This document shows, piece by piece, positions 41,114 to 64,000 of a stretch of 64,000 bases of DNA. Source of the DNA: Winogradskyella bathintestinalis (GTDB lineage Bacteria; Bacteroidota; Bacteroidia; Flavobacteriales; Flavobacteriaceae). The notes under the pieces were generated by a model. That model did not search any database. It worked only from the letters and a program-made list of their open reading frames with translations, and had not been told where the DNA came from. Each line of letters opens with the position of its first letter. The stretch's first letter is position 1. The translations under genes were made by a program, and so were the position numbers. The stretch lies in the NCBI RefSeq assembly GCF_030407435.1, contig NZ_JASDDK010000002.1, positions 62,001-126,000 of the forward strand, given 5' to 3'.

Positions 41114-41118
41114 CTATA

Positions 41119-44028
41119 TTATATAGGCATTATTATAACCACTTTGGTTCCTGAAGCTATTTGATTTTCATCGTATAAATCTTCAATAGCAATGGTTATA
41201 TTTCGTTTTAATTTGTTTTTGTAAAGGTGAACCCGTTCTTCATTGGCTTTGGTAGCAAAAGGTTTGTGCTGTTGGTTCGGTCGTTTTAATTTTTCAGATT
41301 GTGTTCTACCTATACCATTATCTTCAATGGTAATTTGTAAGTTATTGTTTTCAATAATTTTAGCTTCAACCTTTAATTGTCGGTCATTTAGTTTATGCAA
41401 TAAGCCGTGTTTTAACGCATTTTCAACGTAAGGTTGAACGAATAAAGACGGCACTTTTATTTGTTGCGTTTTAAGTTGATGATCTATGTGAATTTGATAT
41501 TCTAACTCCTCTTCAAAACGTACTTTCTCTAATTCTAAATACAATTTTAAAGCATTTAATTCTTCTTGAAGAGTGATTTCATTTTGCTGACTGTAATCTA
41601 AATACATTCGGATTAATCGGCTAAACTTTACTAAATACGAGCTTGCCAATTCTTTTTCATTCGATACAATATAATCTTGAATAGAATTTAAAGCATTGAA
41701 AATAAAATGCGGATTCATTTGCGAACGCAGATTTTCTAATCTTAAATTGGTAATTTTTTTATCGATTAAAATTTTATCAATTTCGCTAATACGTTGTTCT
41801 TCTTTTTGTTTTAAACGCCATTTGAAATACAACCAAATTAAACCAAAGATCACAAATAAAATAATTGCATAAAACCACCATGTTTCCCAAAAGGGTTTGG
41901 TAATCACAAAGGTCATCGGAGTCGCAAAAACAGCCTTTTCTGCACTTACATTTTTTGCTTTTAATTCTACGTTATAAGTTCCGCTTGCCAAACTATTAAA
42001 ATTAACCACATTTGTATTTAGTGGTATGCTCTGCCAAGCAGTATCTAATTGCTGTACGCGATATTGATATTTAACATTCTTATTGGTTTGAAAGCCATTA
42101 GAATTAAACTCCAAACCAATTTTATTTAAGTCATAAGGCAGTTTATAATAAGACTGTACCAAGGTATCACGATCGTTAATGTGTACAGCTTTAACCTCAA
42201 CTTTAGAAGTTTTAAAATTCTTAAATAAACCTTCTCCTTTTGGCAGTGCATAAAGGGATTGCGGTAAGCTAAGAATAATAACATCTTTAAGAACAAGAAA
42301 GTCATTTATAGCCGTATTCAACCCATCTTGCCCATTTAAAAATCTTGAAGTTTTAGTTATTGTATTATATTGATACAGTCCAGAATCCGTTGAAATCCAT
42401 AGGAAATCACCATCAGATTTTAGCGTATTTATTTGTAAATTCTTAAATAAATTAGCCGAAGGCTGGCTTAAAGTATTATTCTCAAACTTCATTAAGCCAT
42501 TATGCTGAGTTGCAAGCCAAATTGCTTTGTTTGATGTGCTCATTGCATTAACCAACAAATTATGGCCTTTAAACCGTATGCCTTCCGAAGAAAAGCTATT
42601 TAAATCATATTGAAAAAAGCCATCAATATAAGATACAAAAAGTTTATCATTATGTACCACTGAAGCCTTTACCCGACTAGAACGCAAGCTCTTTTTCTCT
42701 TTTGAATTATAAGGTTTATTATACACTATACCTTCTTTATAATTACCATAAAACAATAAGGTATCGTTTAATTTTGAAATAGTTTTAGCTACTGAAAATT
42801 TGTTAATGACATCTGTAATTTTGTTATTTTTCAGATTAACTACAAAAGATTCGGAAGCATTAATACTTACAATTAATCGCTGTCGTTGGGCGTCGTGAAA
42901 TAGATTACCTATTATTTTCTCTCCAGGCAATTGCAATGTTTTAAAACGCTGAAGCTTGTCATAAAATAAAAGTTTACCATCGTTTGTACCTAATACATAT
43001 TGATTATTTTGTAAAGCGCAAGATGCCGTAATTTTAGACTTTGTAGACTCCAAGTCTGCACGCCTAATATTTAAATTTGGAGATACAAAGACTCCATTAT
43101 CCAAGGTCGCAAACCAATAATTATTATTATAATCTATCTCAACGTCCGTAATAGACTCTGTATTAAAAAGTTGTTCTTTCAGACTGAAAACCTGATCTTT
43201 AAATTCATAAACAAAAATACCTGCAGTGGTTAAAAACCAATATTCGTTGTCAAAACTTAAGAGATTGTAAAAGATTTTATTATTTAATTGAGGTGGAGTT
43301 TCAAGTTTTATTACTGAATTATCACCCCTGTTTATGAGATAAATTATGTTTTTATCATCACTTTTATAAATAAAAAATACTTCATTTTTAAAAGCGAATA
43401 ATTTAGGAGACTGTATAAGGCCTAAGCTTTCAATATCAAATATTTTAATCCTATGATCACCTTCTATTTTATAAATACAATTTTTATTTAAACCTGCCGC
43501 CTCATTAATTGTAAACACATAATTACTATCGTGACTATTAGCATTACTTATGCATAGACCTTCAAAAATCTTGGTGATTTTTTTTGTAGTTTTATTTACA
43601 TCATAGATGCCTGTTATAGTAAACAAGCGGATATCATTTTCTAAAATAGTGTAGGCTGCTAATTGCCCTTTTACTAATTGACTTGCATCTAGAAACAAAT
43701 GTAATTGGTCATTTTCCGCATAAAACAGTTGACCATATATGTTATTACACCATAACTTACCATCATCATCTTCCTTTAATTGAAATAATGAATTTGCTTT
43801 TTGATTTGGGTGACTGTAACGCTGGTAGGTATTACCATCATATCTAAACAAACCTTTATCCGCCGCAAACCAAATATAGTGGTTGTGGTCTTCTAAAATA
43901 TCATAAAACTCAACATCTGGCAGATTAGAGATATTTGCGAGATGCTCAAAAACAGGATCTTGAGCGACTACCACTTCATGTAAAAGAAGTAGTATTAAAA
44001 ATAAAATATTTCTAAAATTTACAGGCAT
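41119..44028 (-). CDS. LytS-type histidine kinase with two-component beta-propeller sensor
   Basis: The ATG at 44028 gives a 969-residue membrane sensor; a TTG two codons upstream (44034) is less likely. It has a signal peptide (ILFLILLLLHEVVVAQ) and a long periplasmic region with propeller repeats (YDILEDHNHYIWFAADKGLF, DYNNNYWFATLDNGVFVSPN, LKSDGDFLWISTDSGLYQYN). A Y_Y_Y domain follows (YQYRVQQLDTAWQSIPLNTN), then one membrane helix (WWFYAIILFVIFGLIWLYF). The kinase part has the phospho-His motif LRSQMNPHFIFNALNSIQDY and the ATP site VQPYVENALKHGL. It differs from polysaccharide hybrid sensors in that the regulator is a separate gene. Confidence 0.92.
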   Translation of the reverse strand: MPVNFRNILFLILLLLHEVVVAQDPVFEHLANISNLPDVEFYDILEDHNHYIWFAADKGLFRYDGNTYQRYSHPNQKANSLFQLKEDDDGKLWCNNIYGQLFYAENDQLHLFLDASQLVKGQLAAYTILENDIRLFTITGIYDVNKTTKKITKIFEGLCISNANSHDSNYVFTINEAAGLNKNCIYKIEGDHRIKIFDIESLGLIQSPKLFAFKNEVFFIYKSDDKNIIYLINRGDNSVIKLETPPQLNNKIFYNLLSFDNEYWFLTTAGIFVYEFKDQVFSLKEQLFNTESITDVEIDYNNNYWFATLDNGVFVSPNLNIRRADLESTKSKITASCALQNNQYVLGTNDGKLLFYDKLQRFKTLQLPGEKIIGNLFHDAQRQRLIVSINASESFVVNLKNNKITDVINKFSVAKTISKLNDTLLFYGNYKEGIVYNKPYNSKEKKSLRSSRVKASVVHNDKLFVSYIDGFFQYDLNSFSSEGIRFKGHNLLVNAMSTSNKAIWLATQHNGLMKFENNTLSQPSANLFKNLQINTLKSDGDFLWISTDSGLYQYNTITKTSRFLNGQDGLNTAINDFLVLKDVIILSLPQSLYALPKGEGLFKNFKTSKVEVKAVHINDRDTLVQSYYKLPYDLNKIGLEFNSNGFQTNKNVKYQYRVQQLDTAWQSIPLNTNVVNFNSLASGTYNVELKAKNVSAEKAVFATPMTFVITKPFWETWWFYAIILFVIFGLIWLYFKWRLKQKEEQRISEIDKILIDKKITNLRLENLRSQMNPHFIFNALNSIQDYIVSNEKELASSYLVKFSRLIRMYLDYSQQNEITLQEELNALKLYLELEKVRFEEELEYQIHIDHQLKTQQIKVPSLFVQPYVENALKHGLLHKLNDRQLKVEAKIIENNNLQITIEDNGIGRTQSEKLKRPNQQHKPFATKANEERVHLYKNKLKRNITIAIEDLYDENQIASGTKVVIIMPI

Positions 44029-44042
44029 ATACAAGGAAAAAA

Positions 44043-48357: not shown

Positions 48358-49143
48358 TTATGTTCTATTTATACTTTTAAATTCTATCAACTCCTGTAAA
48401 GTCGTTGGAAGATTAGAAACTACAATTTCCTCAGAAATCATTGTTTCACTAAAAGCTACAGCAGCTTTATATTTTTCATCTAAGTCAAAACTAAATACAG
48501 TCATATTTTTGAACTCGCCTAGCAAATGAGAAGCTTTAGTATGTTGACCATCTAATGCAGGAATTTGCGCAATATTATCATCGATACCTTTCCCTGTTGC
48601 CTTAACGAAAGCTTCTTTACGCGTCCAACATGTATAAAAAGCTTCTTTTTTATTAGCCGCTTTTAAAACGGATCTAATTTCTAAGTCATTGAATGTAGAC
48701 GGAATAATTTCCAAAAAATTAAAATCTCGATTCATATATTCTACATCAATACCTACCGAAGCATGGCTTAATGCTATTAAAGCATAATTTTCGGAGTGCG
48801 AAACATTAAAATTTATTGATCTATCAAAAGGTAAATACGGCTTTTTATTATTATCTTTTTCAAAAATAATATTTTCAATTTCAAGTCCTGTTTTCTGAGC
48901 GAGTATAAATTTTAGTAACGTCCTACAGATTATAAAGCGTGATTTATCTTTCGGAGAATAATATCTTTCTGCACGTTGCATTTCAACAGGCGTAAGAAAT
49001 TGTAAAAAATCAATCACCAAGTTTTGATACAGTGAGAGCTTAATTTTAAAAATATTTAAATATTCTGAATTATTTTCAAATTTATCAAAGGGTACAATAA
49101 TAACCTTAGTGCTGTGACAGAACACATTATAAACCTGACTCAT
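48358..49143 (-). CDS. 4'-phosphopantetheinyl transferase, Sfp type
   Basis: This 261-residue enzyme loads the phosphopantetheine arm of coenzyme A onto carrier domains. The Sfp signatures are present: INFNVSHSENYALIALSHAS, GIDVEYMNR (metal-binding Asp and Glu) and CWTRKEAFVKATGKGIDD. It starts 4 bases after the stop of the C-A-T-TE gene at 49148, so its translation is coupled to the cluster. It should activate the five carrier domains visible nearby. The length is typical for Sfp-type enzymes. Confidence 0.93.
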   Translation of the reverse strand: MSQVYNVFCHSTKVIIVPFDKFENNSEYLNIFKIKLSLYQNLVIDFLQFLTPVEMQRAERYYSPKDKSRFIICRTLLKFILAQKTGLEIENIIFEKDNNKKPYLPFDRSINFNVSHSENYALIALSHASVGIDVEYMNRDFNFLEIIPSTFNDLEIRSVLKAANKKEAFYTCWTRKEAFVKATGKGIDDNIAQIPALDGQHTKASHLLGEFKNMTVFSFDLDEKYKAAVAFSETMISEEIVVSNLPTTLQELIEFKSINRT

Positions 49144-49147
49144 TTTA

Positions 49148-52100
49148 TTAACGGTCTAGAATGTTTTGTAATATTTTTCCAAGCTTTTTATCATTTGGAG
49201 GCGAAAGCATATTGACATGGTTTCCTGGTATTAAGTGCTTATTGACACCCTTTGTGGCTAGTTGTCCCCATCCGAGCATATCTGGATCATGAGCATAAAA
49301 AACATCATCTTCTGCCACTCTTAATAAATCTACTTTTATGTCTAAGGGTAAAATTTGATAATTATTAATAGCTTTTTTATGCATCTGATCTAACTCAAAC
49401 GGCCAGCTATGCAGCATTTTGTGATGTGCTTCTTTTCCATATTTGAATTTTAAATACTTTTGTTTTAAGCTTTCTTTAAATAATCGCATGCGATGCTCAA
49501 AGTTGGACTTGCTATGAAACATTTTCTGAGACATATAAAGCACCATTTCCAAAGTATATTTTGTACGTGAAATCTTTTTTCTTGCGGACGGTGTATAACA
49601 ATAATAAGGATATACATAACTATCTAAAAGAATTACTTTATGTACGGTTTTATTCTGCGACATAAGTTGCCTTGCCATTTCAAAAGCAATGACTCCCCCA
49701 AAAGAATAACCAGCAAGTATATAAGGGCCTTCTGGGTTAGATTTCACAATTTCAGAAATGTAATATGAAGCCATATCTTCAATCTTATCATGTGGTGTAT
49801 CCACACCATCAAGTCCTTTTGATTGTAAACCATACATAGGCTGGTCGTTATCTAGATTCTTTGCTAAAGAATTTAGAAACAAAACATTATGTTCTGCACC
49901 ATGTACGACATAAAGCGGTGTTTTTGTTCCTTCTGGTTTTATGGGCACAAAAGAACTCCAACAAATTTCTTTAGTCTCTAAATCTATGAATTCTGCCAAT
50001 TTTTCGACAGTTGGATAAATCATTAAGGCAGATAATGGTAATCGTTTTCCTGTTTTCTTATCTAACAGGGACATGACTTTAACAGCAATTAACGAATGAC
50101 CACCAAGCTCGAAAAAGTCACTGAATATGTCTATTTTGTCTCGTTTTAGGCAATCTTCCCAAATAGAGGTTACTATTTTTTCTGTTTCAGTTCGCGGAGC
50201 TGTATATTCCGCTAATCGGTTATTTTTATAAGCTTGACCTTTAAGTGCATTTCGATCTATTTTCCCGTTTAATGTGGTTGGAAATTCTTTTAAAAAATAA
50301 AAATCTACAGGCACCATATAAGCTGGAAGTTCTTCCGCAAGGCTTTGTTTCCAGCTGTTAGTAAGGTCTGTTGACACCTCTTCATTTTTTTTCAAAATAA
50401 CAAAACCTTCAAGTCGTTCTTCATTAACCAACACAACAGAATTTTCTATATCCTCTAAGTTGTTAATAGCCTCTTCTATTTCACCAAGTTCTATACGATG
50501 ACCTCTTATTTTAACTTGTTGATCCATACGGCCTAAACATTGAACCTCTCCTGAAGGTAGCATTTTAGCCAAATCCCCTGTTCTGTATAATAGTGTCTCT
50601 TCGTCTTGATTAAAGGTATCAGCTATAAATTTTTCAGAAGTTAAATCTTTTCGTTTCCAATACCCTTTTGCAACACCGTCGCCCGCAATACATAATTCAC
50701 CTATTTTACCAGGTGCCATGAGTTGACCTTTATCATTTAAGATATACAATTGGGTGTTGGCAATTGGTTTTCCAATACTAATTAATGTATCTTCTGTTTT
50801 AATCTGTTTTACCGTTGACCAAATTGTAGTTTCTGTTGGTCCGTACATGTTCCAAAGCTCATCCACGCGCTGCAACAATTTAGTCGCTAAATTCAGGGAA
50901 AGAGCTTCACCTCCACAAAGTGCTTTTAATGGCAAATGATTTTCCCATCCAGCATCTAATAACATTTGCCAAGTTGTTGGTGTCGCTTGCAATATGTTGA
51001 TTTTTTCTGCTTTGAGAACATCGAGCATTAAACGGGTATCTTTAGCTGTTTCGTCGTTTGCGATAACCAATGTAGCTCCTTTTAATAATGGTAGGTACAA
51101 CTCTAAACCTGCAATATCGAATGAAATTGTAGTTATGGATAATAATCGATCTGTTTCTTGTATGCCTGGTTTTTCAAGCATACTATAAAGAAAATTTACA
51201 AGGTTTCTGTGCGTTACCTGAACGCCCTTCGGATTACCAGTAGATCCAGAAGTATATAACAAATACACCATTTTATCTATATCTACAGCAGTATTGGTTG
51301 GGCTTGCAGAATATTTTGATAAATCCGAAAACAAATGTTCTATTGTTAATTGTTTTGGAATGGCGTCTAACTTTAGTCGTATTTTTTCTGATGAAATTAA
51401 TATTTCAGCCTCTGAGTCTTTCATCATAAAATCTAGACGCTGTTGCGGATAACTAGGATCTAACGGTAAATACGCGGCACCGCATTGCATAATAGCCACT
51501 AAACTTATAACGAGCTCAATAGACCGAGGTAATGCCACCGCCGTAATCGTCCCTGGTTTTACCCCTTCTTCAAATAAACAATGTGTAAGCTGGTTGACTT
51601 GTATCTCAAAATCTTTATATGAAATTTCAGAATTTTCAAATTTCAAGGCAATCTTTTCAGGTCTTAGCTGTGCTTGTTTAGATATAAGTTGATGTAATGT
51701 GATCTTTGGATAATCTATTTTAGTAGCATTTACTAATTGATATAACGCATCATCTACTTTGAGAATTTCTTCTATATTTTTTTGGGGTGTATTTACAAAT
51801 TGTTCTAGTAAATCTTGAAATGACATCATCATTTCTTTAATGGTTTCTCTTTTGAACAATGCCGTATTAAAAGACCATTCCAATGTTAAATTCGCCTCAG
51901 AACCAGTTACATTTAAAAAAATTTCGAAGGCGTCATAAGCTCTTGGGTTACTTTCCAGCTCACAATTTAAACCTGAAAAATAGACAGCCTCCATAATGCC
52001 CATATTATTATTAAAAACTATAGGGATTAAAGGGACTCTAGACGGGTCTCTAGCAATTGAAAATTTTTGGAGTAATTGACCAAAACTGAATTCTTGATGA

Positions 52101-53074
52101 TTATAAGCTTCTTGTAATTGAGGAATTCGTTGTTCTAAATATTCTTTAAAACTTAAAGCCGTGTCAATTTTACTTCGTAATGGTAATAAATTTAAGAAAT
52201 TACCTATCATATGCGTCTTATTTTCCGTTATCTTATCAGTTGCGGTTAAGCCAAGAACTATATCATTACGGCCTGTTTGTTCAGATAAAAAAATCTCAAA
52301 AGCAAATAGTAGTGTATTAATGAAATTACAACCTGCTTGTTCACCAATATTCTTCAAACCGTCTACAAGGTCTGTTTTTAAGGAAAAATTCAATCGATCA
52401 CTTCTGTACGTTCTAAGTTCTGGTCTCGGAAAATCCGTTGGTAATGTCAATTGTGGAACCGTATCTTTATACTGATTTAACCAATATTTTTCAGCAACAT
52501 CAAAAGCATCATTGCCCAAATTAGCATGTTTTTTCGCCGCATAAGAACCGAATGCTATTGGTTGTGGTAAATTTAGATTAGTGTTAAGTACATCGGCAGT
52601 ATAGATACGTCCTAATTCTTCTAATAAATTTCCTATAGACCAACCATCACATACTAGATGATGCACGGTAAGAATAAAGCGATGTTCTGTTTCTGATAAC
52701 TTAATCAGACCTACTTTAAATAGTGGTCCCTTAACTAAATCGAAAATAAAATTGGCTTCTGAAGCTAAATAGTTAGCAATGATTTTATCCTTTTCGACGG
52801 CATCACATTCAGAAATGTTTTTATCATTAATAATTGCTGACCAATCCTTAGGGACCTTAATGAAACGACCGTCAGAACTAAAGGTAGATCTTAAGGATTC
52901 ATGCCGTTCTACTAATAATCTTACCGCTTTTTTAAATGCTTTTTTATTTAAACGGCCCAATAACTTCAAGGAGATAGATTCGTTATATCCTCGATTAGCA
53001 TCTATACCACCTAATTTACAAGCAGTCCAAATTTCTGCTTGAGATTGTGTAGTATAAATTTTTGGTTGCTTCAT
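49148..53074 (-). CDS. single-module NRPS, C-A-T-TE, predicted glycine-activating
   Basis: This 1308-residue synthetase has the order C (about 5-440, HHLVCDG at 138-144), A (about 458-945, YTSGSTGNPKG and NGKIDR with Lys938), T (Ser994 in GGHSL) and TE (nucleophile Ser1124 in GYSFG, Asp1151, His1286). All catalytic motifs are intact. The ten A-domain pocket residues read DILQLGMIWK, the established glycine type. The C-domain start (TTQSQAEIWTACKLGG, NESISL) fits hybrid C domains that act on aminated polyketides. It is closely similar to the module at 53558 throughout, so one arose by duplication. Its promoter is at 53279-53309; the transferase gene follows. Confidence 0.92.
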   Translation of the reverse strand: MKQPKIYTTQSQAEIWTACKLGGIDANRGYNESISLKLLGRLNKKAFKKAVRLLVERHESLRSTFSSDGRFIKVPKDWSAIINDKNISECDAVEKDKIIANYLASEANFIFDLVKGPLFKVGLIKLSETEHRFILTVHHLVCDGWSIGNLLEELGRIYTADVLNTNLNLPQPIAFGSYAAKKHANLGNDAFDVAEKYWLNQYKDTVPQLTLPTDFPRPELRTYRSDRLNFSLKTDLVDGLKNIGEQAGCNFINTLLFAFEIFLSEQTGRNDIVLGLTATDKITENKTHMIGNFLNLLPLRSKIDTALSFKEYLEQRIPQLQEAYNHQEFSFGQLLQKFSIARDPSRVPLIPIVFNNNMGIMEAVYFSGLNCELESNPRAYDAFEIFLNVTGSEANLTLEWSFNTALFKRETIKEMMMSFQDLLEQFVNTPQKNIEEILKVDDALYQLVNATKIDYPKITLHQLISKQAQLRPEKIALKFENSEISYKDFEIQVNQLTHCLFEEGVKPGTITAVALPRSIELVISLVAIMQCGAAYLPLDPSYPQQRLDFMMKDSEAEILISSEKIRLKLDAIPKQLTIEHLFSDLSKYSASPTNTAVDIDKMVYLLYTSGSTGNPKGVQVTHRNLVNFLYSMLEKPGIQETDRLLSITTISFDIAGLELYLPLLKGATLVIANDETAKDTRLMLDVLKAEKINILQATPTTWQMLLDAGWENHLPLKALCGGEALSLNLATKLLQRVDELWNMYGPTETTIWSTVKQIKTEDTLISIGKPIANTQLYILNDKGQLMAPGKIGELCIAGDGVAKGYWKRKDLTSEKFIADTFNQDEETLLYRTGDLAKMLPSGEVQCLGRMDQQVKIRGHRIELGEIEEAINNLEDIENSVVLVNEERLEGFVILKKNEEVSTDLTNSWKQSLAEELPAYMVPVDFYFLKEFPTTLNGKIDRNALKGQAYKNNRLAEYTAPRTETEKIVTSIWEDCLKRDKIDIFSDFFELGGHSLIAVKVMSLLDKKTGKRLPLSALMIYPTVEKLAEFIDLETKEICWSSFVPIKPEGTKTPLYVVHGAEHNVLFLNSLAKNLDNDQPMYGLQSKGLDGVDTPHDKIEDMASYYISEIVKSNPEGPYILAGYSFGGVIAFEMARQLMSQNKTVHKVILLDSYVYPYYCYTPSARKKISRTKYTLEMVLYMSQKMFHSKSNFEHRMRLFKESLKQKYLKFKYGKEAHHKMLHSWPFELDQMHKKAINNYQILPLDIKVDLLRVAEDDVFYAHDPDMLGWGQLATKGVNKHLIPGNHVNMLSPPNDKKLGKILQNILDR

Positions 53075-53557
53075 GAGACGTAGGTTAACTGAATTAAAAT
53101 CTATGGATTTGGTATAAGCGAAACGGTTAATTTATTTCAGGGAATTTATTAAAAAATAAGATGACTAAAAAGAAAAATTAGACAAGTTGTTGCGTTTATC
53201 GTTTAAAACCAATATGTTGATTTTATAGGCTTAAATCATTTAGAAATCAACCATTGTTTCATAATTAATTGTTCAGACCAAACATAAGTTAAAAATACAT
53301 ATTTATCAATAAAAAAACGATAAAAACTCTCATATAATCACTTGGTTTTTAGAGATAAAGCCTATCGCACCACTCAAAATCTAGGTTTATGAATTATATG
53401 ACAATATCTACATCAGCTTAGATGACAATGGCATAGTAAACGTTTTCCCGAGAGCTATTAAAATTATTTCATTTTTATGAAGTAAAAAGTTTAAAATCGA
53501 AATAAATAAAATTATGTAGTCTTAGATTATTAGGAAAATTGTCAGATGAAAATTTAT
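53075..53557. other. intergenic region between the two glycine-type NRPS genes
   Basis: These 483 bases hold no gene. The minus-strand promoter at 53279-53309 gives the 49148 gene a leader of about 195 bases. A 12-bp inverted repeat (53522-53569) overlaps the end of the upstream NRPS gene. The rest shows no convincing structure. Confidence 0.6.
53279..53309 (-). promoter_or_regulatory. internal promoter for the 49148 NRPS and transferase genes
   Basis: The minus strand reads TTG (53309-53307), 20 bases, TATGTTTG (53286-53279), a full match with the same spacing as the zapA and purC promoters here. Transcription would start about 53272, about 200 bases before the start codon at 53074. Confidence 0.7.
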
Positions 53558-53569
53558 CTAATAATCTAA
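53522..53569 (-). repeat. inverted repeat at the end of the 53558 NRPS gene
   Basis: TTAGATTATTAG (53522-53533) and CTAATAATCTAA (53558-53569) are perfect complements separated by 24 bases. The right arm contains the stop codon. There is no T-run directly after the stem on the minus strand, so it is a weak or non-standard terminator, or an mRNA-stabilising hairpin. Confidence 0.5.
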
Positions 53570-56500
53570 AATTTGTTGCAGCACCTCACTAAATTTTTTA
53601 TCATTTGGTGCTATGAACATAGTAGCATGATTACCAGGAACACTATGCCGCTTTACTCCTTGCTTAGCCAATGCGTTCCAACCGTAGTACTTTTTATCAT
53701 GTTTAAAGAAAGTAGGTATTTCTGCGATCATTAAATCAACTTTAATATCTTCTGTAGTTATATGATAACGTCTCGCAGCTAAATCGTGCTTTTTACTTAA
53801 TTCCATCAAAGCTTTACTTCCTATATTGAGCTCTAATAATTCCCGTAACTCTCTGCGCTCAAGCTTTTGCTCTTTATTGTTTTCTTTTATACTAAAAAAC
53901 AGCTTTTTAAATTGATCTTTAAATAATCGCATTCTTTGATTAAATTTTGCTGCACTACTAAACATCTTCGATATCGCAAATATCATTTTTCCAGACGTAT
54001 AATATCCGGCCATTATGTTCTTTCTAAAAGTATCGGGATAATAATAAACAGGAAAGACATAACTATCAAACGAGATAAATTTTTCAACGGTTTTACCCTG
54101 AGCCTTTAATTGTTTGGCCATTTCAAAAGCTATAATCCCTCCGAATGAGTATCCTGCTATAGAATAAGGACCATTTGGATTGGTTTTTATAATTTCAGAA
54201 ATATAATGCGCAGCCATCTCCTCTATAGTGTCATTAGGTGTATCTTCCCCATTAAGCCCTTTAGCTTGCAAACCATACATTGGTTGGTTCTCATCCAGAT
54301 GTTTAGCCAACGAATTCAAAAACAAAACGTTATAAAACTCACCATGAATAACGTAAAGAGGCGTTTTGTTTCCATCAGGTTTTATGGGTACTAATGAACT
54401 CCAAGTATTTTCTTCACTACCAGCATCCATGAATTGCGACAGTTTCTCTATGGTAGAGTGCGTCATTAATGTTGATAATGGCAATCGCTTTCCTGTCTCT
54501 TTCTCTAAAAGTGCCATCACGCGAACGGCGACCAACGAATGGCCTCCTATCTCAAAGAAATTACTAAATACATCTATATTTTTTACATTTAGACACTCCT
54601 CCCATATCTCAGCTACTAAGTGTTCTGTTGCAGACCTAGGTGGCGTTTTTTCACCAACATTTTCTAAAGATAACTTTGAATTTCTTAATAATGATTTACG
54701 ATCAATTTTGCCATTTAAAGTTGTAGGAAATTCATCAATAACGTTGATCTCATGAGGCACCATATAAAGTGGTAAAAGTTCTTTTAGGGCCACTTTCCAC
54801 TTTTGTACTGAATTTTCAGTTGAATCAACAGTATTACCTGTTGTCACAAAAGCTTTTAAGCGCTCTTCATCTATCATTACAACACAAGACTCTATGTCTT
54901 CTATTCCTATAATAACCTCTTCTATCTCACCCAGTTCTATTCGATGGCCTCTAATTTTTACTTGGTCATCCATACGCCCTAGACATTCGAACTCGCCATT
55001 ACTTAATAAGCGACCGAGATCACCAGTTCTGTACAATTTAGTATTGGTTTTCGAATCCAATGGATTAGAAATAAATTTCTCGGAAGTTAAATCCGCTCTT
55101 TTCCAATAACCTTTTGCCACACCATCTCCGCCTATAACAATTTCACCTATTGTACCCGGCTTCATCAAAAGACCTTGATCACTAAAAATATAAACCTGCG
55201 TATTGGCTATTGGTTTTCCTATAGTAAGGATGTCATCTTCCGCTAAAATTTGTTTGGTAGTAGACCAAATAGTGGTTTCTGTAGGCCCATACATATTCCA
55301 TAGTTCATCTACTTTAGACACTATTACTTTTGATAGCGACAAAGGAAGTTTTTCGCCACCACTTAATGCTTTTATGGGCAGCGGATTTGTCCATCCAGAG
55401 TCTAATAACATTTGCCAAGTTGTAGGTGTGGCCTGTAACATGGTTATGTTTTCTTTTTCTATAAATTCTAAAAGTAATCGGCCATCTTTAGCAATATCAT
55501 CATTTGCGATGACTAATGTTGCACCACTTATTAATGGTAAAAACAGCTCAAGTCCAGCGATATCAAAAGAAATTGTTGTTATAGACACTAGCCTATCACT
55601 TTCATCTATTCCAGGCTCTTGCAACATGCTAAATAGAAAATTGACAAGATTTTTATGCGTTACCTGTACTCCTTTTGGATTTCCTGTTGAACCCGATGTG
55701 TAAAGCAAATAAGCTGTTTCTATATTGTTTACAGTCGTCGATAATGGGTCTGAGGAATAATTTTTTAAGTCGAAAAATAAATCTTCCAACACCAATTTGT
55801 TTGAAACTGCTTCTGACTCAATCGAAACTTCCTTTGAAGTTATAATAACTTTCGCCTCAGAATCATTGAGCATAAAATCAATTCTATGTTTCGGATAACT
55901 TGGGTCTAATGGCAAATAGGCCGCTCCACATTGCACTATGGCTAACAAACTTACCACAAGCTCTATGGAACGCGGGGAAGCGACTGCCACCACTGAATAT
56001 GGTTTTACACCTTTTTCTAATAAACAATGTGCCAACCGATTGACTTGCAAGGCCAAATCTCGATAGTTAATTTCGGATTTTTCAAATTTTAAAGCTTGTT
56101 TATCTGGGGAAATTTTAGCGCGTTCAGCAATTATTTGATGTAATGTTAATTTCGGATATGTTTTATGAGTGTTATTAACGCTCGTATAAGCAGAATCGTC
56201 AACCTTAAAAATTTCTTTTAATTCAACGTGAGGTGTTTCAATAATTTGTTGTAATAAATTTTGAAATGAAACCATCATTTGTTCAATCGTTTCGCTTTTG
56301 AACAATGCCGTATTATAAGACCATTCTAAAACTAAATCGTCCTCCGATCCTGTGGCGTTTAGAAAAAGCTCAAAAGTTTCGTAAGCTCTTGGATTACTTT
56401 TCACACTATAATTTAAGCCTAAAAATGATACCGCAGAAGTCATTCCCATATCAATATTGAAAACTACGGGAACCAAAGGTACTCTCGAAGGATCTCTTGC

Positions 56501-57580
56501 AATAGACAATTTTTGAAGCAATTGTCCAAACGTTAATTTTTGGTGTTCATAGGCATCAAAAAGTTGTGACTTCCGTTGTTTTAGATAGTCCGTAAAACTA
56601 ATATTTAAATCAATTTTACTACGTAAAGGCAATAAATTTACACAATGCCCAATCATTTGGGTTTTACCACTTGCTGCCTGATCCGCTGAAGGCAGTCCCA
56701 AAACAATATCATTTTGTCCGGTTTCTGAACTTAAAAATATCTCAAAAGCGGATAAAATTGTGGTAACTAAACTACAGCCTGCTTTTACTCCTGTTTTTTT
56801 GAGGGCAGTCACTAAAGTAGATCCCATAGTAAAATCTAAACGCTCACTTTTAAACGTTCGAAGTTCTGGTCTCTGAAAGTCAGTTGGTAATGTTAATTCT
56901 GGAATAGAGCTTTTGTAGAGATCTAGCCAATATTTTTCAGTCTTAGAATGTGCTTCACTTTGTAAATAGAGTTGCAAATCATCTGCGTAAGAACTGAAGC
57001 TATCCACATCTGGAAGTAAGGGAGATTCATTATTGACTCCTGCGGAATATAACTGGCCTAATTCTTCGAGCATAATACCAAAAGACCAACCATCGCATAC
57101 AATATGGTGGGCTGTTATGATTAATTGATGCGCTTTGTCATTTATTTTAAGTAATCCTACTTTAATCAATGGCCCTTTGACCAAGTCAAAAATAAAATTG
57201 GAATCTTTTAATAGATAGTCTGATACCGTTTTCTTTGTTTCATCAGAAGTTAATTCCGATAAATCCTGAAGTTTAAACTCCAAGGGTACAAAACTTAGAA
57301 CACTCATAAAGCGTCCATCTGGACTAAATACAGAGCGTAAAGCTTCATGTCTTTTCACTAAACCTTGAACGGCATTTTCTAATGCTGAAATATTTAAGTC
57401 ACCGTTTAAAATCAGTGATATCGATTCATTAAAAGACTTATTTGCATCTTCGCCTCCCAATTTACAAGCAATCCAAATTTCTGCTTGAGATTGTGTGGTA
57501 TGAATAACTTTCTCAATAGTAGGTCCTGCAAATGGGTTAAATGAAATACTGCTTTTTTGGTTAGTTACTGTTGATTGCAT
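53558..57580 (-). CDS. single-module NRPS, C-A-T-TE, predicted glycine-activating
   Basis: This 1340-residue synthetase has C (about 25-460, HHIVCDG at 158-164), A (about 478-965, YTSGSTGNPKG, YGPTE, Lys958 in NGKIDR), T (Ser1015 in GGHSL) and TE (Ser1145 in GYSFG, Asp1172, His1317). The pocket residues read DILQLGMIWK, identical to the 49148 module: glycine type. The first 25 residues (MQSTVTNQKSSISFNPFAGP) form a tail ahead of the C domain, possibly a docking segment for the aminotransferase protein encoded 48 bases upstream. The C domain is of the hybrid type expected after an aminotransferase. The region 1185-1265 in the TE lid is long and basic. Confidence 0.92.
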   Translation of the reverse strand: MQSTVTNQKSSISFNPFAGPTIEKVIHTTQSQAEIWIACKLGGEDANKSFNESISLILNGDLNISALENAVQGLVKRHEALRSVFSPDGRFMSVLSFVPLEFKLQDLSELTSDETKKTVSDYLLKDSNFIFDLVKGPLIKVGLLKINDKAHQLIITAHHIVCDGWSFGIMLEELGQLYSAGVNNESPLLPDVDSFSSYADDLQLYLQSEAHSKTEKYWLDLYKSSIPELTLPTDFQRPELRTFKSERLDFTMGSTLVTALKKTGVKAGCSLVTTILSAFEIFLSSETGQNDIVLGLPSADQAASGKTQMIGHCVNLLPLRSKIDLNISFTDYLKQRKSQLFDAYEHQKLTFGQLLQKLSIARDPSRVPLVPVVFNIDMGMTSAVSFLGLNYSVKSNPRAYETFELFLNATGSEDDLVLEWSYNTALFKSETIEQMMVSFQNLLQQIIETPHVELKEIFKVDDSAYTSVNNTHKTYPKLTLHQIIAERAKISPDKQALKFEKSEINYRDLALQVNRLAHCLLEKGVKPYSVVAVASPRSIELVVSLLAIVQCGAAYLPLDPSYPKHRIDFMLNDSEAKVIITSKEVSIESEAVSNKLVLEDLFFDLKNYSSDPLSTTVNNIETAYLLYTSGSTGNPKGVQVTHKNLVNFLFSMLQEPGIDESDRLVSITTISFDIAGLELFLPLISGATLVIANDDIAKDGRLLLEFIEKENITMLQATPTTWQMLLDSGWTNPLPIKALSGGEKLPLSLSKVIVSKVDELWNMYGPTETTIWSTTKQILAEDDILTIGKPIANTQVYIFSDQGLLMKPGTIGEIVIGGDGVAKGYWKRADLTSEKFISNPLDSKTNTKLYRTGDLGRLLSNGEFECLGRMDDQVKIRGHRIELGEIEEVIIGIEDIESCVVMIDEERLKAFVTTGNTVDSTENSVQKWKVALKELLPLYMVPHEINVIDEFPTTLNGKIDRKSLLRNSKLSLENVGEKTPPRSATEHLVAEIWEECLNVKNIDVFSNFFEIGGHSLVAVRVMALLEKETGKRLPLSTLMTHSTIEKLSQFMDAGSEENTWSSLVPIKPDGNKTPLYVIHGEFYNVLFLNSLAKHLDENQPMYGLQAKGLNGEDTPNDTIEEMAAHYISEIIKTNPNGPYSIAGYSFGGIIAFEMAKQLKAQGKTVEKFISFDSYVFPVYYYPDTFRKNIMAGYYTSGKMIFAISKMFSSAAKFNQRMRLFKDQFKKLFFSIKENNKEQKLERRELRELLELNIGSKALMELSKKHDLAARRYHITTEDIKVDLMIAEIPTFFKHDKKYYGWNALAKQGVKRHSVPGNHATMFIAPNDKKFSEVLQQILDY

Positions 57581-57628
57581 TACGGTATAACTGATTTACA
57601 ATTTGAAAAATAATAGTTTTGATTTAAA

Positions 57629-60600
57629 TTATAAATCTATTTGAACATAGTTATTATTATATTTCTCATCTTCAACAAACCAAGCTGGATTACCTGATTT
57701 ATCAAAACCTAATTTTGCTCCAGATACTGGAGGTTTGTTCAATTCTTTAGTCAAGTATTTATTTCCATTGGCTGATGCCTCATCTTTTTTTTCCGATTCA
57801 AAAATACCCGCAGCTGTGAGTTTTTCAATACATTCTATAAAAGAATTGATTAAACGCGTTACATCGTCTTCTGTGTATGCAGCAGTCATATAGCAAGGAA
57901 AACCATCCCAAACATGGATGCCTTTTTGTCTCATCATTACAAACAGCAATTCTGAATAAGGAATATCTTCCAATATTTGTAATTTCCACAAAGATCTATA
58001 ATAAGGGACTTGAATTGGAAGATTTTTCTCATTGCAGTAGGCGGTAAGTTCAGTGGCCACACGTTCCGTTTTTTCCGCTAAATCATCTTGAAGTTTTGCT
58101 CCCTGTTTTTTCATTTCTAGAAGTGTTGCTTTAGCAGAAGCTAATGCTAATGGATGACGAACAAAAGTGCCAGCAAAATAAGTCACACCAGCCTCAGGAA
58201 AAGAATCGTCACCATATTGCCAAAATCCTCCATCAAGAGCATCCATGCAACGCTTATTACCCACTATTGCGCCAATAGAAATACCGCCACCAATTACCTT
58301 TCCGTATGTTGCAAGGTCTGCTTTAACACCAAACAGTGCTTGTGCTCCACCAGGATGCATTCTAAAACCTGTAATAATTTCATCAAAAATTAAAATGGTA
58401 TCTGAAGCTCTAGTTACTTTTCGTACTTCCTTCAAGAATTCTATAGGTCTGAAATCGGGTCTTCTACTTTGAACAGGTTCAACTAGAACAGCGGCAATTT
58501 CGTGTGCGCGTTCTTTAATAATTGCTAAACTTTCATCAGTACCATAATCTAATATCAACATATTCTGCACGGCTTCAGGCAAGATACCAGAAGCAGCTGG
58601 GAAGGTTTTCAATTTTTTTGAGCCTCTTACAATGACCTCATCATTGATGCCATGATAAGAACGCGAAAATGCTACAATCAGTGAACGTTCTGTAACCGTT
58701 CTAGCAATACGCATAGCTCCAAGTACGGCTTCGGATCCTGTATTACACAAAGCGGCACGATCTTGACCTGTGAATTCACACAATAGTTCGCTAACTTCAC
58801 CAGCGAGAGGATGCTGAGGACCAACTTCAAAACCAAGTTCTACTTGATTGTGTATGGCTTCTTTTATAAAATCGGGCTGATAACCAAATAAACTAGAACC
58901 AAAACCATTTAATGTATCGATATACTCATTGCCATCTAAATCCCAAAGTCGATTACCTGAAGAACGCTCCACAACAATAGGGTAAACAAGCTCTTTCGTT
59001 AAGGGTTTAAAACCTGTAACTACCCTTGGGTCTGACATATGACCACGATGTTTTTGGGAATAGGCTTTACTCTTCGCTGTTTTTTTATTGTACGTATCAA
59101 TTAAATTCTCTAAAAATGCTTTTTTATGACCATCTAATTCTGAGGCATTTCTATCTATCTTAGGTGCTGCTCCAAATGGTTTTTGGTGTTCTTTCTTTTC
59201 GTCTTCAGATAATTCATCATTGGAAGACACAACTCGAGGTGTTTCAACCACTTTCTTATCTTCTACATTTGGCATAGGACTTGGAGCAACTTCATTACTA
59301 GTTCCCTGAAGTAATTCTATTTGTTTTCCTAATAGTTGTAATTGCTGAGCGATAAGGCTCAATGCCGAATTTTGATTAGAATGGCTTACAAAATTTTGAT
59401 TATTTGCTGTATTTTGAGTTTGTTGAGGTGCAACATAAGGTTGTTCTGACACATGCTGAGATGGCTCAACTTGATTATTAATATTAGTTGCTGGTGCAAA
59501 AATTTCTTTAGGCAAAACGTCATCTAAATAATCTGCCAGCACATTTGGAGATTCAAATTCATCATTCAATTGTCTAAAGGTAATTTCAGCATTAAATTCC
59601 TTCTTAAACGATATGGCCATTTGTGTTAAGATCAAAGAATCTAAGCCAAGTTCTAAAAAACTTTGATCAAATTGGTTAGCGGTAATTTCAACTCCTGAGT
59701 TTTCCTCTATGATCTCAGCTATTTTTTCGAGTAGAATAGGTTTTCTCATCAATTTAGTATTTATATTCGATTTAGGTGTGATTGGTGTACTATTATTAAG
59801 ATTTACAGAAATAGGTACGTTGGCAAGATTAGTAATTGAAGAATACGTAGCAGGCGGATCTAACCAGCATGGTTTTCGATCAAAAACATAAGAAGGTAAC
59901 TCTACGTTCTGTCTGGTTTGATTCTTGTAAAAGGCGTTCCAATCTGGATCTATGCCATGCAGCCACAAATCTCCTAGAGCGGTTATTACGGTATGATAGG
60001 CCGTTTCATCTTCTTTCGGAATCGTTAAACTAGCAATGGAAGCTACAGACTTTAAACCTTTCTTTTGCATTGATAATGTAGTTAATGCACGTCCAGGCCC
60101 TATCTCTAACAGTACAGGATCTTCTAATGCCAAAACCGTTTCCATCGCTCCAGAAAAGTTAACAGCTGCCCTTAAATGATTTGTCCAATAGGTTGAACTT
60201 GTTGCTTCTGCATCAGTTAACCATTTCGCCGTTACAGTGGAAACAATTGGTACACGCGGCACATTTAAGGTTACTTTTTTAACTTCGTCTTCAAAGGTAT
60301 CCAATACCGGATTCATCATTGTAGAATGAAATGCATGACTGGTGAGTAAAAGCATATTCGCTATACCTTCGTCATTCAGGACTTTAGAAAAACTATCAAT
60401 TTCAGTATCTGGACCAGAAATCACAGTTAATCGATCTGAATTGATAGCTGCAATGGACAGCGTATCTGGAATTAAACCTTTTATGTCTTCTACATTTTTT
60501 CGAACAGATAACATACTTCCTCCTGGAAGTTCACTAACTAGCTTACCACGCACAGTAATAAGATGTAAAGCGTCTTTTAAAGAGAAAATACCAGCTAAAT

Positions 60601-63600
60601 GGGCGGCGACAAATTCTCCAATACTATGTCCGCAAAGTAGTGTCGGTTTTATTCCCCAACTCATCCATAACTGTGCTAGGGCATATTCAATAACAAATAA
60701 TGCTGGCTGAGTGAATTTAGTATCTTTTAATTTTTGTTCTGCGTTTTCAGAATTATTTTCAGGATAAATTATGGTTTTAATATCAAGTTTTAAATCGGCT
60801 TTTAAAATTTCTGCACATTGATCAACTGCAGCTCTAAATACGTTTTCTTCGTGATAAAGTGCTTTTCCCATTTGAAGGTATTGAGAACCTTGACCTGGAA
60901 ATAAAAATACTAGTTCGTTTGGTAGTACTTTTAATGCATTGGTTTTTATAGCCTTTTGGTCTTTAGATAGAAGTTTCTCACTTGCTGCTTTAGATTTATC
61001 CGCTATCGCAAAACTCCGATGCGCAAACGCATCTCTTGTAAACGTTAAGCTATGAGCAACATCTGCCAATGAACCTTCTGAATGTGATTTTAAATAATTA
61101 CCCAATTTTGTTTGATAGCCATCTAAACTATTAGGTGTTTTAGCTGACCATGGTAAAAGTTGTACGGGTCTGCTAGCATCTGATACTTTCTGTTCTGCCA
61201 CATATTCTTCAACTACAATATGAACGTTGGTACCACCAATGCCGAAGGAACTGACTCCTGCTTTTCTAGTACCTTCAGAGTCCCACGGGATTAATGTATT
61301 ATTTACATAAAATGGACTGTTTTCAAAATCAATAGCAGGATTTGGTTTTTCAAAACCTAAAGTTGGAGGAATCTGACGATGCTTTAATGCTAAAACCGTT
61401 TTAATAAGACCTGCTACACCAGCGGCAGCTGTTAGGTGCCCCATATTACTCTTAATAGAACCAATGGCGCAATAGCCGTTTAAATCTTGTTCACCAAAAG
61501 CAATGTTTAAACCTTCAACTTCTATAGGATCCCCTAAAGGAGTTGCTGTACCATGCGCTTCAACATAGCTAATTTCTGATGCTCTAATGTCTGCATCTAA
61601 ATGGGCATTACTGATGGCTCCTGCCTCGCCTTCAACACTTGGTGCCGTAAAACTTCCTTTATCTCCACCATCGTTGTTAATTCCTATACCTTTTATAACC
61701 CCATGGATTGTATCACCATCTTTTATAGCATCCTCTAAACTTTTAAGAAGCACTACTCCTGCTCCATCGCTAAATACAGTACCTTTTGCGTCTGCATCAA
61801 AAGAACGGCAATGTCCATCAGCACTATGTATAGAACCTTCTTGGTATAAATGACCACTGTACATGGGAGACGTTACACTTGATCCTCCTGCAATAGCAAC
61901 ATCACATTGACCACTTCTTATGGCTTCGACCGCTTCGGCTATAGCTAACAATGAGGTAGAACAAGCCGAATGCACACTAACTGCTGGCCCTTTTAGATTC
62001 ATATGATAGGCAATTCTCGACGCTACATAATCTTTATCGTTTACGGTGTTTGCTTGAATGATTCCTATCTGAGCCATTAAATCCTTATTAGGAAACACAT
62101 TGTTCACATAATAACTATTCGCATTTACCCCAGTGTAAACAGCAATACTGCCATTATAATGTTTTGGTAAATGACCAGATTGCTCCAACAATTCCCATAC
62201 AATCTCTAAAAGAAGACGTTGTTGCGGATCCATAGCTTTAGCCAATTTAGGATTCAGTCCGAAGAACTTCGCATCAAAAGCTTTAGCTGTTGGCACAATA
62301 CCTCTGGCCGCCACATAAAGTGGGTTTTTATATAATTCTTCAGGAATACTTTCATCTAGTTCTTCGGGAGAGAAAAACGTAATGGTTTCTTCTCCACTTG
62401 CTAGAACATTCCATAATTCTTCAATTGAATTCGCCCCAGGGAACCGGCCCGCCATACCTATAATCGCAATATCACCAGTTGATTTTTTTCTTCTTTTCTT
62501 TTTTGATTTATCAACTTTGGATTTATTATGGTCAATTTCTAAAAATTCTGAAAGTCCTGCTATCGTAGGAAACTGATAAATCTTTGTAACTGGTAGTTTT
62601 AAATCGAGATGCTTTTCAATGAGAACGGCTACTTTTTGAGTTAAGAGCGAGTTGCCACCCATTTCGAAAAAGTTATCGTCAATACCAATCTCTGGAATAG
62701 ATAGATGAGTACTCCATATATCAGCAATATCTTTCTCTAAAGCCGTTTTGGGCTTTTTTAAAGGGGGCGCATTATGAGGTCTTTGATATTCTGGGAGCGG
62801 TAATTTTTTCTTGTCAATTTTTCCATTTGGAGTCATTGGGAACTCTTCCATCCAAACAAATAGGGATGGTACCATATAATCTGGTAACGACTCTGCTAAT
62901 TTATATTTTACAATACTATCATCTTTAAAGTCCTCAGTTGACTTTATATAAGCAATTAATCGCGGCGCTCCCAAATTATCAGTGGCAATGACGGTAACTC
63001 TGCTTATATTAGGTAAATTAGTAATAGCGGTTTCAATTTCTCCTAATTCAACACGATAACCCCTAATTTTTACTTGGTCATCTTTTCTACCTATAAATTC
63101 GATATTACCATCTGGTAGCCATTTTGCTAAATCACCAGAGCGATACATATATTCCCCTTCTGAGAACGGGTTTTTAATAAATTTTTCTTCACTAAGCTCG
63201 GGTAAGTTTAGATAACCACGAGCCAAGCCACTGCCCGACAAACATAATTCACCGATAGCGCCTACAGGTAATAATTCTAACGTATCAGATACGATATGTG
63301 CTTTTGTATTATAAATTGGTTTACCTATTGGCAAAGCCCCTACTATAACATCAGCAGTAGAAAATTTGTAAATCGTTGAAGTTACTGTATTCTCTGTAGG
63401 TCCATATTCATTATAAAAGTCGCATATTTTATCAATTCTTTCAGCTAGATTTATTGGACATACTTCACCACCAACTACGATTCTTTTTAAACTTGTCACC
63501 TCTGACAAATCTGGTAAGGTTTCGATATAACTCGTGGTTCCGCTTAAATGGGTTATCTGATTATTTTTTAGAAAATTTGGTAACATGAAATTTTTGATCG

Positions 63601-64000
63601 TATCAATATCAACAATAACGATTGCTGCACCATTAAATAATGCTAAAAATAGCTGCTCTACAGAGGCATCGAAAAAATAATTAGAAAATAACAATACCCT
63701 TTCATTATTTTCAAATCCATAAAGTTTGGTCTGAGAGCTGATTAAGTTGACTACAGACTGATGTTCGATCATTACCCCTTTTGGATTACCTGTAGTACCA
63801 GAAGTGTATATAACATAAGCCAAATCATTTGGGTTAGCATTAATGTTTAACGGATATTCATTGGTATGCGCTTCTTTTGTAGTCGTGAAATTCTCTATTA
63901 GAGCCGAATCAACAGTAATTTTACAATTACTATCGTCCTTTATAAATCCTTTTCTAGATTGCGGAGATTCTATATCTATAGGAACATAAATCGCTCCTGC
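57629..64000 (-). CDS. hybrid NRPS-PKS: A-T-KS-AT-ACP-aminotransferase (N-terminus outside window)
   Basis: The frame is open to the right edge and the visible part is 2123 residues. By position: A domain (64000-62790; A3 core YTSGTTGNPKGV), T (Ser codon at 62650), KS (62476-61205; Cys codon at 61963 in SACSTSL, His in EAHGTA and NMGHL), AT (60910-60014; Ser in GHSIGE; HAFH, malonyl type), ACP (Ser in GLDSL near 59638), a Gln/Asn-rich linker, and a class III aminotransferase of the glutamate-1-semialdehyde type (59146-57811; FDEIITGFR, PLP Lys in TYGKVIGGG). There is no KR, DH or ER. The A pocket reads DAESVGEVTK, with Asp first, so an alpha-amino acid is expected; it is near Lys-type codes as I recall them. 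The protein ends in a linker GNPAWFVEDEKYNNNYVQID. Confidence 0.93.
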   Translation of the reverse strand, partial: AGAIYVPIDIESPQSRKGFIKDDSNCKITVDSALIENFTTTKEAHTNEYPLNINANPNDLAYVIYTSGTTGNPKGVMIEHQSVVNLISSQTKLYGFENNERVLLFSNYFFDASVEQLFLALFNGAAIVIVDIDTIKNFMLPNFLKNNQITHLSGTTSYIETLPDLSEVTSLKRIVVGGEVCPINLAERIDKICDFYNEYGPTENTVTSTIYKFSTADVIVGALPIGKPIYNTKAHIVSDTLELLPVGAIGELCLSGSGLARGYLNLPELSEEKFIKNPFSEGEYMYRSGDLAKWLPDGNIEFIGRKDDQVKIRGYRVELGEIETAITNLPNISRVTVIATDNLGAPRLIAYIKSTEDFKDDSIVKYKLAESLPDYMVPSLFVWMEEFPMTPNGKIDKKKLPLPEYQRPHNAPPLKKPKTALEKDIADIWSTHLSIPEIGIDDNFFEMGGNSLLTQKVAVLIEKHLDLKLPVTKIYQFPTIAGLSEFLEIDHNKSKVDKSKKKRRKKSTGDIAIIGMAGRFPGANSIEELWNVLASGEETITFFSPEELDESIPEELYKNPLYVAARGIVPTAKAFDAKFFGLNPKLAKAMDPQQRLLLEIVWELLEQSGHLPKHYNGSIAVYTGVNANSYYVNNVFPNKDLMAQIGIIQANTVNDKDYVASRIAYHMNLKGPAVSVHSACSTSLLAIAEAVEAIRSGQCDVAIAGGSSVTSPMYSGHLYQEGSIHSADGHCRSFDADAKGTVFSDGAGVVLLKSLEDAIKDGDTIHGVIKGIGINNDGGDKGSFTAPSVEGEAGAISNAHLDADIRASEISYVEAHGTATPLGDPIEVEGLNIAFGEQDLNGYCAIGSIKSNMGHLTAAAGVAGLIKTVLALKHRQIPPTLGFEKPNPAIDFENSPFYVNNTLIPWDSEGTRKAGVSSFGIGGTNVHIVVEEYVAEQKVSDASRPVQLLPWSAKTPNSLDGYQTKLGNYLKSHSEGSLADVAHSLTFTRDAFAHRSFAIADKSKAASEKLLSKDQKAIKTNALKVLPNELVFLFPGQGSQYLQMGKALYHEENVFRAAVDQCAEILKADLKLDIKTIIYPENNSENAEQKLKDTKFTQPALFVIEYALAQLWMSWGIKPTLLCGHSIGEFVAAHLAGIFSLKDALHLITVRGKLVSELPGGSMLSVRKNVEDIKGLIPDTLSIAAINSDRLTVISGPDTEIDSFSKVLNDEGIANMLLLTSHAFHSTMMNPVLDTFEDEVKKVTLNVPRVPIVSTVTAKWLTDAEATSSTYWTNHLRAAVNFSGAMETVLALEDPVLLEIGPGRALTTLSMQKKGLKSVASIASLTIPKEDETAYHTVITALGDLWLHGIDPDWNAFYKNQTRQNVELPSYVFDRKPCWLDPPATYSSITNLANVPISVNLNNSTPITPKSNINTKLMRKPILLEKIAEIIEENSGVEITANQFDQSFLELGLDSLILTQMAISFKKEFNAEITFRQLNDEFESPNVLADYLDDVLPKEIFAPATNINNQVEPSQHVSEQPYVAPQQTQNTANNQNFVSHSNQNSALSLIAQQLQLLGKQIELLQGTSNEVAPSPMPNVEDKKVVETPRVVSSNDELSEDEKKEHQKPFGAAPKIDRNASELDGHKKAFLENLIDTYNKKTAKSKAYSQKHRGHMSDPRVVTGFKPLTKELVYPIVVERSSGNRLWDLDGNEYIDTLNGFGSSLFGYQPDFIKEAIHNQVELGFEVGPQHPLAGEVSELLCEFTGQDRAALCNTGSEAVLGAMRIARTVTERSLIVAFSRSYHGINDEVIVRGSKKLKTFPAASGILPEAVQNMLILDYGTDESLAIIKERAHEIAAVLVEPVQSRRPDFRPIEFLKEVRKVTRASDTILIFDEIITGFRMHPGGAQALFGVKADLATYGKVIGGGISIGAIVGNKRCMDALDGGFWQYGDDSFPEAGVTYFAGTFVRHPLALASAKATLLEMKKQGAKLQDDLAEKTERVATELTAYCNEKNLPIQVPYYRSLWKLQILEDIPYSELLFVMMRQKGIHVWDGFPCYMTAAYTEDDVTRLINSFIECIEKLTAAGIFESEKKDEASANGNKYLTKELNKPPVSGAKLGFDKSGNPAWFVEDEKYNNNYVQIDL

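Follow-up and report, generated by a model that had tools for sequence, protein, structure and literature searches.

We analysed a stretch of 64,000 nucleotides from Winogradskyella bathintestinalis (contig NZ_JASDDK010000002.1, positions 62,001 to 126,000; hereafter the window), the right end of which carries a hybrid nonribosomal peptide synthetase-polyketide synthase (NRPS-PKS) gene cluster with three large synthase genes, P1, P2 and P3, and a gene for an Sfp-type phosphopantetheinyl transferase (PPTase). This cluster is real, intact and conserved, and it is of a known kind, namely a hybrid NRPS-PKS with an embedded aminotransferase. For its product we lean, with somewhat better than even confidence, towards a reading of the domains in which P1 would extend an amino acid by a malonate unit and aminate the result, P2 would add glycine to yield a 3,4-diaminoacyl-glycine, and P3 would act as a second terminator with its own promoter. 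In what follows, L-numbers are labels of the loci that were compared, the window's own locus being L003, and P followed by four digits denotes a database protein.

Domain organisation and proposed chemistry

All four genes lie on the minus strand, and the open reading frame (ORF) list gives their transcription order as P1, P2, P3 and PPTase. ORFs, Pfam and motif reading define P1 (57629..64000, minus strand, running on past the right edge) as a hybrid synthase with adenylation (A), thiolation (T), ketosynthase (KS), acyltransferase (AT), acyl carrier protein (ACP) and class III aminotransferase domains in that order. According to Pfam, KS, AT, ACP and class III aminotransferase are thus contained in a single protein, the arrangement of a hybrid PKS with an integrated beta-aminotransferase. 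P2 (53558..57580, minus strand, 1340 aa) and P3 (49148..53074, minus strand, 1308 aa) are both condensation (C)-A-T-thioesterase (TE) proteins by the ORF list, Pfam and motif reading, and their A domains share the pocket code DILQLGMIWK, which we take to be of the glycine type; P2 begins with an N-terminal NPFAGP leader and P3 has no such leader. The PPTase (48358..49143, minus strand) matches the Pfam families ACPS (E 1.2e-13) and AASDHPPT_N, and its best NCBIfam model is HetI, at 106 bits, below the cut-off of 370 for that model. A preliminary description, made from the sequence alone, had placed three large enzymes and an Sfp-type transferase on one strand, with the domain orders given here and with intact catalytic motifs; each of these points was borne out, since Pfam returns the same orders and a script search located the KS, AT, carrier, aminotransferase, C and TE motifs.

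In P1, the script found the Cys and two His of the KS (60986..62479, minus strand), the Cys being in the HSACSTS motif at 61972-61952, the GHSIG and HAFH motifs of the AT (59951..60910, minus strand) and the GK motif of the aminotransferase (57803..59128, minus strand). HAFH presumably marks a malonyl-type AT. The carrier Ser motifs in the cluster are GGNSL, GLDSL and, twice, GGHSL, and P2 and P3 each contain the C-domain motif HHxxxDG and the Ser, Asp and His motifs of the TE. The nearest solved relative of the aminotransferase is mycosubtilin synthase MycA (6kfu/6kfm, E about 1e-111); when compared with solved class III enzymes, MycA scores 6.5e-111 and the next group, the glutamate-1-semialdehyde aminomutases, 1.1e-45. 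The closest solved KS-AT to that of P1 is 8xju/8xjy, to which our literature search tied no compound.

The starter A domain of P1 (62708..64000, minus strand, continuing past the edge; Pfam and motif reading) has the pocket code DAESVGEVTK. Together with the adjoining T domain it matches amino-acid A domains of solved NRPSs, and it contains both the A10 Lys and the pocket Asp, a residue that usually binds the alpha-amino group of the substrate. A-domain codes were read throughout from sequence motifs with GrsA numbering, and single letters may be misread. The code has seven of ten positions in common with DAESIGSVCK, which we take to be the lysine code of bacitracin synthetase, and the starter in the window is perhaps a basic amino acid (Lys, Orn or Arg). 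The neighbours of the pocket stretch in PDB (LgrA, TycA and GrsA, with ApnA lower) do not settle the substrate.

We propose that the A-T pair of P1 loads an alpha-amino acid, in this genome probably one of these three basic residues, and that KS-AT-ACP would then add one malonate unit to it. The built-in aminotransferase would convert the resulting beta-ketone to an amine; since the pocket Asp points to an amino acid starter, one malonate and one transamination would leave the ACP carrying a 3,4-diamino acid. P2 would take over this intermediate through the tail of P1 and its own leader and couple glycine to it, after which its thioesterase would release the 3,4-diaminoacyl-glycine, either open or ring-closed, and a methyltransferase conserved beside P1 probably methylates the product. 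P3 would be a second glycine-adding and releasing module, probably with its own promoter and without docking through a leader, and because of these two properties it would be likely to provide an additional release route or a further product that is made only under some conditions. Several considerations weigh against this scheme. The A-domain codes are motif-read, and glycine and lysine are assigned by likeness to general specificity codes; moreover, we know of no natural product that arises from amination directly after an aminoacyl starter.

A mostly constant tail and a variable head in the P1 family

P1 is present in 17 of the 68 genomes of the genus (C-terminal quarter at at least 67% identity) and in 15 of 397 genomes in a sample of the family, with this genome included in both counts. 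Thirty loci were obtained when species genomes were scanned; the P1 family accounts for 28 of them, which come from Winogradskyella, Maribacter, Gelidibacter, Psychroserpens, Algibacter, Seonamhaeicola and others; L031 (Kordia) and L034 (Gammaproteobacteria), which are 35-37% identical to P1, were excluded from the counts, and P1 in L032 is cut by a contig end. Among the best 120 relatives of the C-terminal third of P1 (its own protein included), which are from Winogradskyella, Psychroserpens, Gelidibacter, Maribacter, Algibacter and others, 111 are 2100-2300 aa in length. The neighbourhood is conserved as well: a PPTase gene is found downstream of P1 in 26 of 27 loci, a methyltransferase gene near P1 likewise in 26 (on the opposite strand in three Maribacter; the contig of the 27th begins inside P1), and a membrane protein gene near P1 in 17. 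The full flavobacterial P1-family gene set of P1, a glycine-type C-A-T-TE protein, PPTase and methyltransferase is present in this locus, the last of these just past the edge of the window. One of the database relatives of P1, P0018, is 71% identical in the C-terminal third, and its sources include a metagenome-assembled genome labelled Glaciecola, presumably a gammaproteobacterium, which would reflect either transfer or a mislabelled bin.

The family combines a mostly constant tail, the glycine-type terminal A domain, with a swappable head, the starter A domain, which varies between lineages. Among the best 120 relatives, P1 codes are DVQ-type in 53, DAE-type in 30 (including the window), DFWNIGMVHK in three, DILQLGMIWK in three and DAT-type in one, while 23 were unread and seven have no readable A domain; the P1 starters of L015 and L026 are DFW-type. 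We take DVQ-type codes to be proline-like, and DFWNIGMVHK to specify threonine. At the other end of the line, the terminal A domain reads D[IM]...WK in 114 of the 118 single-module P3 relatives listed (120 relatives minus two longer than 2100 aa). In 54 of these 114 the code is DILQLG..WK; the other 60 either diverge from it or contain positions that were not read, which makes glycine less certain for them. Comparison of the window with L067 (W. helgolandensis) illustrates the change of head: identity between the two P1 proteins is 76% in the KS, 72% in the aminotransferase and only 41% in the A domain, and the starter code in L067, read by eye, is of the glycine type. This implies an exchange of the starter domain while the core stayed conserved.

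One group of DAE-type loci provides an indirect indication of the starter substrate. A GNAT gene and an ornithine-racemase-like gene are inserted between the methyltransferase gene and P1 in all eight loci with the code DAE[NK]VGAVTK (L005:8009-9613, and the same place in L014, L022, L023, L027, L029, L030 and L033). Two of the racemase genes were scanned and match NF040742 with E 3.1e-75 (253 bits) and 1.9e-72 (244 bits), the cut-off being 480; the racemase gene of L022 is split. The pair was found in none of the other 19 P1 loci; these include L016, where the sequence upstream of P1 is missing. The association of this code with a racemase resembling ornithine racemase argues for a basic amino acid in that group, and only indirectly for the window. 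Against the extension to the window, its code differs from DAE[NK]VGAVTK and its locus has no racemase, which is true also of L024 with the near code DAENVGTVTK. DAE codes are themselves variable (DAEHIGEVTK, DAEEVAKVAK), and, since the eight racemase loci are mostly from Winogradskyella, the link between racemase and code may be one of ancestry.

P3, a second terminal protein

P2 and P3 are 57.7% identical. Among the neighbourhoods read, the P1-P2-P3 arrangement is found only in the window and in L067, most loci having a single C-A-T-TE gene, and Winogradskyella sp. PC D3.3 encodes P2-like and P3-like proteins on one contig (P0134 and P0122; gene order not seen). P3 thus has orthologs in two other Winogradskyella, and all three proteins are exactly 1308 aa long. 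In a tree of 33 proteins, P3 (three rows) and P2 (with P0139) form separate clades, each with 100/100 support; the L022 fragment was not among the sequences compared, nor, in some trees, were the three Maribacter outliers. Compared domain by domain, P2 and its counterpart in L067 are 67-77% identical and the two P3 proteins 58-76%, as against 53-63% between P2 and P3. This implies that the pair predates these species, and a recent tandem duplication as the origin of P3 was rejected on the basis of the identity between P2 and P3, the orthologs of each and their own clades.

P3 is an unusual terminal protein. An [NDHS]PF leader is present near the start of 115 of the 118 relatives listed, and the three without it are P3 and its two orthologs; three-frame reading by eye revealed no leftover leader in the 483-bp gap upstream of P3. 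This gap, which is 577 bp in L067, contains a 41-bp block (53275..53315, minus strand) with TATGTTTG that is conserved in L067 (92.7% identity, blastn E 4.6e-13) and is proposed as the P3 promoter. We take TATGTTTG to be the -7 type of flavobacterial promoters, and in the window a TTG is located at a fitting distance from it. A 32-bp core of the block has one match in the window, and a 23-bp core has one match in the genome (at most three mismatches); across the 68 genomes of the genus, the latter is exact only in the window's genome and in that of L067, with a single three-mismatch match in a third. Since a conserved, promoter-like block precedes it, P3 is probably transcribed from its own promoter. 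There are also observations that tell against the proposed reading. The TTG at -33 reads TAG in L067, and the block was found in two species only. The C domain of P3 is fast, with an end branch of 0.87 versus 0.34, which fits relaxed constraint too, and the thioesterases of P2 and P3 group with different relatives, so that one or both may be mosaic.

We consider it rather unlikely that P1, P2 and P3 form a single linear line, in which P3 would add a second glycine to give X-Gly-Gly and the P2 thioesterase would be idle or editing. An added module does occur in the P1 family, since L007, L008 and L013 encode a fused protein with two A domains (about 2420 aa; C-A-T-C-A-T-TE in the two scanned), and among 31 A domains the nearest to that of P3 is the second one in W. 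costae (75%, support 100/99). However, P2 has kept the Ser, Asp and His motifs of its TE, and P3 both lacks a leader and is preceded by the promoter-like block. The C domain of P3 is also of the post-aminotransferase kind: it averages 51% identity with C domains after P1 (n=23) and is no closer to internal C domains (mean 43%, n=3).

A slightly less probable explanation is that P3 is a spare or decaying paralog contributing nothing to the product, to which the fast C domain, the missing leader and the departures from columns invariant in 20 relatives would correspond. There are 20 such departures in P3, versus seven in P2; 13 of those in P3 fall within residues 72-357 and two are the missing leader itself. 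However, the protein of L023, the single C-A-T-TE gene in its locus, departs at 28 columns, and P3 has no stop codon and retains its motifs. In addition, the upstream block is conserved, and the two further species with 1308-aa orthologs both also have a relative of P2. We prefer to regard P3 as a second terminator. If the proposed scheme as a whole is right, this cluster family, widespread in marine bacteria and with no product in the literature examined, would acquire a structure class open to testing, in which a vicinal diamine acid is linked to glycine. Natural starter swaps on a conserved KS-aminotransferase-glycine core would then provide a template for assembly-line engineering, and P2 and P3 would illustrate the addition to one line of a second terminator with separate expression. 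Because many carriers of P1 are deposited culture strains (DSM, KCTC, CECT), the proposal is directly testable. As a wider and distinctly tentative suggestion, marine flavobacteria might share a constant-tail, variable-head line for small cationic 3,4-diaminoacyl-glycines, a scaffold that is not known to have an assembly-line precedent. Each lineage would obtain a member of its own by swapping starter A domains with basic, proline-like, threonine or glycine codes, and a few Winogradskyella would add a switchable second product by means of a second terminator with its own promoter.

Known systems and flanking genes

The preliminary description had related the cluster to the iturin, mycosubtilin and microcystin lines. 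This kinship stands for the KS-AT-ACP-aminotransferase part, with the aminotransferase nearest to MycA, and does not extend to the starter, which is an amino-acid A domain. The mycosubtilin and iturin synthases MycA and ItuA share with P1 a class III aminotransferase placed after a type I KS-AT-ACP; they open with a fatty-acid ligase and hand their product to an NRPS for seven residues, whereas the line in the window begins with an amino-acid A-T and continues in separate, one-residue proteins ending in TE. Neither a fatty-acid adenylating loading domain nor a heptapeptide NRPS is present here, where P1 is followed by two single-module proteins. McyE of the microcystin system has an aminotransferase after the ACP and McyG an A-T-KS-AT start, as in P1, but both contain additional domains and are part of the long line for the toxin microcystin, which has no counterpart in the window. 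TAN-1057 from Flexibacter, a Bacteroidota dipeptide with a beta-amino basic acid, differs in its second residue, a diaminopropionate-type ring and not glycine. TAN-1057 was rejected as the product, since the glycine tail does not fit, and the accessible part of the literature yielded no TAN-1057 gene cluster.

There is a small chance that the product is already known and that the genes were never linked to it, or were linked in a subscription paper or a MIBiG entry, given that the P1 family is widespread and that the literature examined was open-access, several searches giving no relevant result. On the other side, no product for P1-family clusters was found in that open-access literature (MIBiG not covered), which agrees with the preliminary description in that it knew of no flavobacterial product with this domain order; the cluster is nevertheless not an isolated case, as the genus and family counts demonstrate. 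The available portion of one survey reports PKS/NRPS hybrids exclusive to Winogradskyella and names no product (PMC10734526), and the available portion of a second paper reports one NRPS-T1PKS (type I PKS) cluster in W. bathintestinalis, with no known-cluster match and no product named (PMC7615552). These clusters agree with ours in genus and cluster class; their domain order is not given in those portions, and they may or may not be the same cluster. The variant found here combines an amino-acid starter and exchanged heads with a terminator of the glycine type, joined in three Winogradskyella by a second one that lacks the leader, and it is not described in the literature examined. Least probable is an iturin- or puwainaphycin-like lipopeptide, in which P1 would load a fatty acid to give a beta-amino fatty acid: the block order KS-AT-ACP-aminotransferase is identical and the aminotransferase is closest to MycA, but fatty-acid loading was rejected because the loading domain of P1 is a standard amino-acid A domain that has both the A10 Lys and the Asp for the amino group, no further ligase gene is present among 19 neighbours scanned, and at most one or two single-residue modules follow P1.

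The host genome consists of 35 contigs, that bearing the cluster being 1,042,040 bp. The P1 gene starts at a GTG 303 bp outside the window, giving a full length of 2224 aa (2222 aa in the database form, P0001), and two further genes lie upstream on the same strand, L003:9612-10460 for a methyltransferase and L003:10613-11443 for a membrane protein. The cluster thus continues beyond the right edge, as the preliminary description had stated, by 101 N-terminal residues of P1 and these two genes. Farther out are genes without evident link to the cluster (YdjM-like, PLA1), and the PPTase is flanked on its other side by cytochrome bd oxidase genes. The methyltransferase has weak matches only, in PADLOC and NCBIfam. 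The membrane protein of L003 has no match in Pfam, NCBIfam or PADLOC, and its relative in L005 has a borderline match to PF02517; the protein has the CAAX-protease (CPBP) fold. CPBP/Rce1 intramembrane proteases have a catalytic Glu pair and His residues; an alignment of 17 of these membrane proteins contains no invariant or nearly invariant His. At a guess, the protein may serve immunity or export.

Gene content varies in other loci of the family. In the Maribacter loci L015, L018 and L026, the C-A-T-TE gene is upstream, the methyltransferase is on the opposite strand and P1 is longer, and in L015, the one Maribacter scanned, a partial condensation domain precedes P1. Two Cupin_8/JmjC-type genes, perhaps tailoring hydroxylases, flank P1 in W. 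thalassocola (L028:7392-8255 and L028:16645-17523), and in L066 a 297-aa gene occupies the place of the second. A free-standing protein of 285-294 aa is encoded after the C-A-T-TE gene in L005 (20780-21664), L014, L022, L030 and L067; the one scanned is a thioesterase, and these proteins are about 42-46% identical to the thioesterase end of P3 or P2. The C-A-T-TE gene of W. psychrotolerans RS-3 (L022:16742-20729) is in three pieces, representing either a broken gene or assembly errors. Elsewhere in the window, two-component propeller and Y_Y_Y domains are found in a sensor kinase encoded at 40361-44034, beside a LytTR response regulator.

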